Source: Acidimicrobiales bacterium
GTDB lineage: Bacteria > Actinomycetota > Acidimicrobiia > Acidimicrobiales > MedAcidi-G1
Direction of reading: 5' to 3'
DNA length: 52,386 nt
NCBI GenBank assembly: GCA_030747595.1
Contig: JASLKK010000001.1
Coordinates: 189,747 to 242,132, forward strand
In this document: piece by piece, positions 3,608 to 4,287 of the stretch
Position numbering within the stretch: the first letter of the stretch is position 1
Layout of the letters: the number at the start of each line of letters is the position of its first letter
Translations under genes and position numbers: made by a program
The notes under the pieces: generated by a model
Databases searched by the model: none
What the model saw: only the letters and a program-made list of their open reading frames with translations
Told to the model about the DNA's origin: nothing

Positions 3608-4165
3608 TCAGGTGTCGCGGGAACGAGCCCGGTCGATCAGGTTGAGGGCATCCTGCACGTCAAGTTCGCTGACGTCGGTTACCAGTGACCCGCCGGCGCT
3701 AATGGCCACTGCCGCCGGGTGGCCCACGATCCCGAACCGGAGGTGCACCTCGCCGTCGTCGGCGATGTTGGGAAATCCGGTGATACCCCACTCGGCGACC
3801 GTCTCCGTCGCCAAGTCCATTCGGTCAGCGGGAATGGTGGAGACGCCGATGACGGTGACGCCCGGAATGGTGCTCAGTTCGACGACCGCCGAACTCTCCC
3901 TTCGACACGTCACTCACGTGGGTGTCCAGAACCAGAACAGGACGTCTTGGCCGGCCACGCTGGTTCCATCGAACAGCTCGCCGCCTACCAGGGTGGCCGT
4001 GAACTCCAGCTCGACTGGAATCTCGTACGGCACGGGTTCTGACTCGGACGCCCGAGACGGCTCCGAGACCGCCCCGACCTCGGCGACTTGCGTGTCGTGG
4101 GATCCGGATGTGCAGGCGGCAGCGAGGAGGGTCAGGGCCACGAAGATGCCGACATCTCGTCTCAC
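3608..4165 (-). CDS. TlpA/DsbE-like thioredoxin lipoprotein, candidate selenoprotein (in-frame UGA in the active site)
   Basis: Read straight through one in-frame TGA, this frame gives a 185-aa secreted thioredoxin-fold protein. The signal ends in lipobox LAAAC (Cys18). The segment [18 protein letters not shown] leads into FWFWTPT, where homologues such as mycobacterial MPT53/DsbE have WFWAPWCPTC. Here the first active-site position is TGA (codon 84, bases 3914-3916), followed by V-T-C87, giving a UxxC motif. After the TGA the fold continues normally: VTVIGVST, then the cis-proline motif GHP (Pro150) and the C-terminal helix. A hairpin begins three bases after the TGA and may be a SECIS element. 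TAGGGT lies 6 nt before the GTG start, suggesting a leaderless transcript. The other reading is a nonsense mutation leaving two fragments of 83 and 101 aa. I favour Sec because the stop falls exactly on a redox Cys position and the downstream frame shows no decay. The gene lies upstream of leuC on the same strand. Confidence 0.75.
3881..3911 (-). promoter_or_regulatory. Candidate bacterial SECIS hairpin immediately after the in-frame UGA
   Basis: Counted from the base after the UGA, nucleotides 3-6 (GACG) pair with 30-33 (CGUC). Nucleotides 7-13 (UGUCGAA) pair with 21-27 (UUCGGCG), including two G-U pairs. A two-base bulge (GU) lies on the 3' side, and the apical loop is GGGAGAG. Bacterial SECIS elements are stem-loops just 3' of the UGA with a G at the start of the apical loop, and this one has it. 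The loop begins 13 nt after the UGA, slightly closer than the 16-37 nt I recall for the bacterial model, so the match is good but imperfect. Confidence 0.5.
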
Positions 4166-4171
4166 GCTGCG

Positions 4172-4177
4172 ACCCTA
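4172..4177 (-). promoter_or_regulatory. -10 box of a leaderless promoter for the TlpA-like gene
   Basis: TAGGGT on the minus strand is followed by exactly 6 nt and then the GTG start of the thioredoxin-like gene. This TAnnnT-N6/7-start layout is typical of leaderless actinobacterial transcripts. No Shine-Dalgarno sequence and no clear -35 box are visible. A matching plus-strand box lies 7 nt away, making a compact divergent promoter. Confidence 0.5.
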
Positions 4178-4197: not shown

Positions 4198-4287
4198 ATG
4201 AGCACGAGGATGCTGATCATCTCTGCACTCTTGTGTGGCATGGCCCTCCTGGTGGCCTTCACCGTGCAGGTGGTGGTGGCCCGGTGA
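4198..4287 (+). CDS. 29-aa single-pass membrane peptide coupled to lpd
   Basis: ATG to TGA encodes a 29-residue peptide starting MSTRMLIISALLC. After a short basic N terminus (Arg4), nearly the whole chain is hydrophobic and long enough for one membrane helix, ending in Arg. Two points support it as a real gene despite its size: a TACCGT box 7 nt upstream gives a leaderless start, and its TGA overlaps the GTG start of lpd (GTGA), the same coupling used by other gene pairs here. I do not recognise the family. It could be a membrane tether or a translated leader controlling lpd. Confidence 0.5.
   Translation: MSTRMLIISALLCGMALLVAFTVQVVVAR

Follow-up and report, generated by a model that had tools for sequence, protein, structure and literature searches.

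The window analysed here, a stretch of 52,386 nucleotides from an Acidimicrobiales bacterium, carries on its minus strand what looks like a thioredoxin gene cut in two. The frame from 4165 to 3608 is open throughout except for a sole internal stop, a TGA at codon 84. We asked whether this locus is the remnant of a damaged gene or a functional gene whose UGA is read as selenocysteine (Sec). As set out below, the gene, though broken in appearance, is very likely to be intact and to encode a secreted thioredoxin-like protein with an active-site Sec.

The interrupted frame and its predicted product

The gene (3608–4165, minus strand) runs from a GTG start codon at 4163–4165 to a final TGA at 3608–3610, with the internal TGA at 3914–3916; an earlier sequence-only reading had given the same coordinates and strand, and these proved correct. 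With the UGA taken as Sec, the product would be a TlpA/DsbF-like predicted lipoprotein of 185 residues that consists of a hydrophobic N-terminus extending to Cys18, a linker, and a thioredoxin-like domain bearing FWFWTPT-U-VTC and Pro150. The predicted lipoprotein signal peptide (4112–4165, minus strand) has its lipobox at Cys18 (LAAAC), and a lipobox-like pattern, as read from the sequence alone, stands ahead of Sec in 27 of 30 family loci. Sec84 would take the first position of the redox motif UVTC, with Cys87 (3905–3907, minus strand) as the second redox residue of UxxC and Pro150 (3716–3718, minus strand) at the cis-Pro position by alignment.

Upstream of the gene, a TAGGGT sequence (4172–4177, minus strand) matches a TANNNT −10-like box and starts 12 nt before the start codon. 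A TANNNT box at the same 12-nt spacing occurs in 25 of the 30 loci listed, whereas a scan with the sigma-70 consensus returned no promoter at the gene. This layout, so close to the start codon, is typical of leaderless mRNAs in actinobacteria. The box suggests a leaderless transcript, and its spacing supports the GTG start.

We compared the predicted protein with solved structures. A phmmer search of the PDB gave Mycobacterium tuberculosis DsbF (3ios, E 3.4e-15) and MPT53 (1lu4, E 4.2e-14) as the best matches, and in both the first active-site Cys aligns with the UGA, which confirms the earlier proposal that the TGA is equivalent to the first Cys of the MPT53 CxxC. An AlphaFold2 model, built with Cys for Sec and with 28 Cys homologues, reached a pLDDT of 88 and puts the redox pair at the N-terminal end of a long helix (residues 85–98), as expected of a thioredoxin fold. 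In Foldseek, DsbF (3ios) was again the top match (E 5.5e-14, TM 0.91 by target length), followed by MPT53 and, lower down, by Geobacter thioredoxin, ResA, TlpA and CcmG structures.

Conservation was examined in a family sample of 48 genomes, the host genome included. The gene was found in 36 of them (match E 1.3e-20 or better), each copy with exactly one TGA inside and with UxxC in the same place (30 plus 6 loci read). The host genome and G036 belong to one species, and G036 was omitted as a copy from the alignment of 29 rows. There, a single column is TGA in 29/29 rows and no further in-frame stop occurs anywhere; independent assemblies agree on the TGA at codon 84. The residues F77, W78, F79, W80, P82, C87 and P150 are invariant over the 29 rows, and codon-position bias persists before and after the TGA. 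The sequence-only reading had described a frame free of decay beside the TGA, with an intact cis-Pro, and had called for an alignment of close homologues; in that alignment both descriptions held, with TGA retained at codon 84 among close relatives and Cys in MPT53 and DsbF. The gene is missing from the remaining 12 family genomes, of which five are 91–98% complete (G041, G040, G015, G037 and G021) and all 12 have kept selA, so it is dispensable.

Selenocysteine machinery and a candidate SECIS hairpin

The host assembly (2.46 Mb, 84 contigs, 95.9% complete) encodes the full set of factors whose absence, in the sequence-only reading, was to count against Sec: selA, selB, selD and tRNA-Sec were all found. 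The tRNA-Sec gene scores 66.9 bits, well over the cut-off, and is also called tRNA-Sec by ARAGORN; a second candidate place, just at the cut-off (47 bits), is tRNA-Ser according to ARAGORN. On contig 2, selA (398.2 bits) is directly followed by selB (266.5 bits, an open frame of 573 residues), the pair lying about 14 kb from the tRNA-Sec gene, and selD (357.5 bits) is on contig 4; all three proteins score over their cut-offs. Across the family sample, selA is present in 45 of 48 genomes, and the three without it, which nonetheless hold the gene, are 69–88% complete. The locus thus has the usual marks of a bacterial selenoprotein: a UGA aligned with a redox Cys, sel genes in the genome, and a UGA whose position and frame are kept in 36/36 genomes.

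Downstream of the UGA lies a candidate bacterial SECIS hairpin (3876–3895, minus strand) with an 8-bp stem and the loop GGUC at 3884–3887, the loop beginning 26 nt after the UGA. The stem-loop with a G-initiated loop noticed in the sequence-only reading is therefore present, at 3895–3876. The bSECIS model as printed in PMC13188914 sets a loop of 3–9 nt, a stem of 4–16 bp, a distance of 16–37 nt from the UGA, a G in the first two loop positions and an MFE of at most −7.5. Our hairpin lies within every one of these printed limits (4-nt loop, 8 bp, 26 nt, −9.4 kcal/mol as an isolated hairpin). Folded as an isolated 20-mer, it had a z of −3.8, with 0 of 200 shuffles as stable, while the whole 55-nt stretch had no excess stability (z 0.03, 102 of 200 shuffles as stable). 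A scan of the 52-kb window for TGAs with a GGTC loop 16–37 nt downstream, a stem of at least 4 pairs and at least 30 open codons on either side returned four, among which the codon-84 TGA has the longest stem (8 versus 4–5).

The alignment offers a further view of the hairpin. In the loop, G61, U62 and C63 never vary over the 29 rows and G60 varies once. The inner 6 pairs are paired in 88.5% of cells, with 21 double-change cells and a covariation score of 0.335; for each of these three measures 0 of 500 shuffles were as high, figures that are not probabilities because the alignment rows are related. Control positions slid along the alignment gave 22.4–64.4% of cells paired. Two other measures did not rise above the shuffles: for pairs changed on both sides (4 of 6) the value was equalled or exceeded by 148 of 500 shuffles, and for further pair types (7) by 495 of 500. 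One particular stem pair is broken in 12 of the 29 rows, and a fold of the alignment consensus kept only 4 pairs.

A cleaner control than the shuffle statistics comes from the same gene. The invariant Val codon that forms the loop is GTC in 29/29 rows, whereas GTC is used in 9/29 for another invariant Val, located 27 codons beyond Sec. At third positions, mismatch is 0.267 within the hairpin codons versus 0.586 beyond them; at first and second positions the drop is much smaller (0.311 and 0.237 in the hairpin versus 0.411 and 0.338 beyond).

The selD gene of the host genome itself contains an in-frame TGA, in the context HGAG-U-GCK (L018, near base 1531, contig 4). No GGTC occurs within 67 nt after this TGA, where a different hairpin is present, so the GGUC loop is not shared by all selenoproteins of the host genome.

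Sec and Cys copies across the order and the phylum

We then searched 397 genomes of the host order with the family profile and obtained matches in 287. To set Sec against Cys copies, 73 Sec rows were assembled, 29 taken from the family alignment and 44 out of a further 54 loci (the best new order matches, chosen stretches from the match list, and the six remaining family genomes), together with 90 Cys rows, 80 from a scan of genome contigs using the pattern with Cys at the site and 10 from the order. GGTC at +26 is present in 69/73 Sec copies versus 14/90 Cys copies, and a stem of 4 bp or more in 60/73 versus 1/90, all counted over related rows; among the order's own Cys copies GGTC at +26 occurs in 1/10. 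On a tree of 179 rows only 5 Sec/Cys changes are needed, 2 of them forced by well-supported branches. The rows are therefore non-independent, and a phylogenetically independent pair test of hairpin against Sec/Cys state is without power, significance being out of reach with 5 changes. GGTC at +26 is absent from 4 of the 73 Sec copies. In three Sec copies of family f10 (L188, L190 and L195), TGTC or CGTC stands in its place, possibly as part of a different SECIS.

Genomes with a TGA copy are enriched in selA. Among the order matches listed, 102 genomes have a TGA-containing copy, a number counted from the match list with not every copy read, and 9 have only TGA-free copies. Across the order selA was detected in 234/397 genomes (E ≤ 1e-60): in 97 of the 102 listed TGA-copy genomes, in 3 of the 9 TGA-free ones, and in 137 of the 295 genomes outside the 102, a comparison set that includes some unclassified carriers because weaker order matches fall outside the list. 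The five listed TGA-copy genomes in which selA was not detected are all 73–85% complete.

These observations bear on three other accounts of the split frame. Split ORFs commonly arise from a stop in a single gene, and one rival account is a nonsense change or a miscall at one codon of a former CxxC protein. We give a pseudogene or sequencing error virtually no probability, given that every one of the 36 gene-bearing family genomes has TGA at this codon, that the 29 rows hold no other stop and keep their codon-position bias on either side, and that a matching hairpin lies downstream. A different kind of explanation is that the UGA is read as another amino acid, Trp for instance, or is passed by general read-through, without selenium. 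A changed code would give identical-looking open frames, but TGA also serves as the final stop of this gene and of 25 of 30 family loci, homologues have Cys at the site, and tRNA-Sec and all sel genes are present, with selA enriched among TGA carriers; this account is very improbable.

Equally to be weighed is a locus with two functional products: a peptide of 83 residues that is secreted, and a C-terminal half of the thioredoxin with a start of its own. In the window a potential GTG start does follow the TGA immediately, but the codon after the TGA varies among relatives, so no start is conserved there, and the active site would be parted from the first half of the fold in every relative. We consider such an arrangement highly unlikely. 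The pseudogene, code-change and split-gene readings were thus rejected on the strength of the conserved TGA, the Cys homologues, the sel genes, the hairpin and the unconserved start, and the Sec-containing thioredoxin remains our preferred reading.

Such proteins extend beyond the host order. In a phylum sample, 45 of 396 genomes matched at E ≤ 1e-18, and 32 of these lie outside the order. Twenty of these 32 outside-order loci were fetched: 17 are listed with TGA, all 17 of them UxxC (13 by motif and 4 by eye, with the lead-ins WLW, WMW twice and WVF), and 3 have Cys. Outside the order the hairpin register is mostly not kept: of 13 rows counted, 6 have GGTC at +26 and 1 has GGTC together with a stem of 4 or more pairs. 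The sequence-only reading had held that an extracytoplasmic selenoprotein of this type would be notable in an actinobacterium, a claim that is weakened by how common these proteins are in the host order and by their presence elsewhere in the phylum. Several of the Sec copies from other families of the phylum (L201–L217) have a GC-rich inverted repeat, for example CGGGAGGCTCCCG, nearer the UGA. One outside-order Cys copy (L220) is much like MPT53 in sequence, a resemblance that points to Actinomycetota as the phylum.

Within the order, the search also surfaced a sister subfamily with two UGAs. All 13 of the loci listed with at least two TGAs (L158–L170) read WFWAPWUP[FHT]U, so that each redox position is a UGA and two codons separate the pair. 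GGTC lies 26 nt after the first UGA and 17 nt after the second, with 4–6 stem pairs counted, and the cis-Pro position is occupied, by eye, by Thr (12 loci) or Val (1 locus). None of the matches in the host genome is a UxxU copy. The UxxU pair would be a potential diselenide, and one GGUC hairpin would decode both UGAs. We judge it probable that the order carries a large extracytoplasmic Sec-thioredoxin family, unnamed in the catalogues searched, that includes a UxxU sister with a single shared SECIS. This UxxU set is the most novel point of the analysis. With it one could ask if a single hairpin serves two closely spaced UGAs, and if an active site built on a diselenide functions outside the cytoplasm.

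Relation to known families and a proposed redox role

All Pfam and NCBIfam matches listed for the predicted protein are below the curated cut-offs. Among the remaining 28 rows in the family alignment the best match is ResA (E 7.6e-13, no cut-offs given). Because its NCBIfam scores lie so far under the cut-offs (dsbE 23.5 of 123.15 bits, ResA 19.9 of 170 bits), the protein is not filed as DsbE or ResA proper. NF041054, a model for a ResA-like WAxxUGC selenoprotein, was likewise rejected (13.7 of 300 bits), its motif being UGC in contrast to the UxxC, here UVTC, of the window protein. DsbF (3ios) and MPT53 (1lu4), the closest solved relatives by sequence and the top two fold matches, share the WFW lead-in and the position of the active site; they have CxxC, whereas the window protein has a predicted Sec first and a candidate SECIS hairpin in its gene.

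UxxC thioredoxin-like selenoproteins as a kind are already catalogued. Two sets first described from metagenome reads (PMC1088965, PMC2398784) resemble the window protein as far as their descriptions go: the cd02966 thiol-disulfide isomerase-like set (Sargasso Sea 2005), also UxxC and thioredoxin-like, and Trx-like 1 (COG0526; GOS 2008), also UxxC and of the broad TlpA/thioredoxin kind, with 321 UxxC sequences reported in GOS 2008 (PMC2398784). The catalogue table of a 2026 review (PMC13188914) has 119 families or subfamilies, among them 'thiol-disulfide isomerase-like protein' (cd02966, UxxC), 'redoxin family protein' (UxxC) and 'Prx-like thiol:disulfide oxidoreductase' (UxxC, UxxU). The main text of that review has no words beginning actinobacteri or actinomycet, and an actinobacterial DsbF/MPT53-type family is named neither in its table nor in the other literature searched. 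Literature searches found nothing linking selenocysteine with MPT53 and nothing on extracytoplasmic thioredoxin lipoprotein selenoproteins with UGA, and a search of the selenoprotein literature for Acidimicrobi- or Actinomycetota returned nothing on the subject by title. As to the suggestion that the protein might be undescribed, the UxxC kind is known and the subfamily is a further member of it, while the actinobacterial DsbF/MPT53-type subfamily is unnamed in the sources searched. Its members may sit unnamed inside broader catalogued families.

Where annotation takes UGA only as stop, such genes are split, so that the exported redox system of an actinobacterial lineage would be misinterpreted. 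Natural Sec and Cys forms occur in this family within one fold, and its SECIS consensus in the order (GGUC at +26) is tight and testable.

For the redox partners of the protein, the host genome has one CcdA/DsbD-like match, over the cut-off at 33.1 bits. VKOR had no match in this 95.9% complete genome, and the same search was positive in 3 of 14 control genomes. The host genome also has an ordinary, all-Cys CxxC TlpA-like gene directly before the CcdA/DsbD-like gene (L221, 943–2586).

We propose the following mechanism. SelA and SelD, both encoded in the genome, would make Sec-tRNA-Sec, and SelB would bind the hairpin whose GGUC loop lies 26 nt past the UGA, inserting Sec at codon 84 to form the active site UVTC. 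The lipoprotein would be exported and anchored via Cys18. By its fold and motif, Sec84 would then attack and Cys87 resolve in thiol-disulfide exchange with exported proteins. In the weakest step of the scheme, the single CcdA-like protein would be the most likely source of electrons, favoured because VKOR was not found in so complete an assembly. Tentatively, we favour the role of a CcdA-reduced reductase or isomerase over that of an oxidase. As judged from the genomic evidence, we have little doubt that this is the gene of a TlpA/DsbE/DsbF-type extracytoplasmic selenoprotein with a predicted membrane anchor; Sec would be inserted at codon 84, and the protein would act in redox exchange as proposed.

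Divergent from the selenoprotein gene, on the plus strand, lies an ORF of 29 codons (4198–4287), MSTRMLIISALLCGMALLVAFTVQVVVAR, with one hydrophobic stretch that probably spans the membrane. It has no Pfam match. By tblastn, 27 of 29 family loci contain a match of 22–29 residues at 64–100% identity, and further matches occur in L146, L151, L155 and L156, the last three of which have lpdA nearby. In many loci a TACCGT-like box is found shortly ahead of the start of this ORF.
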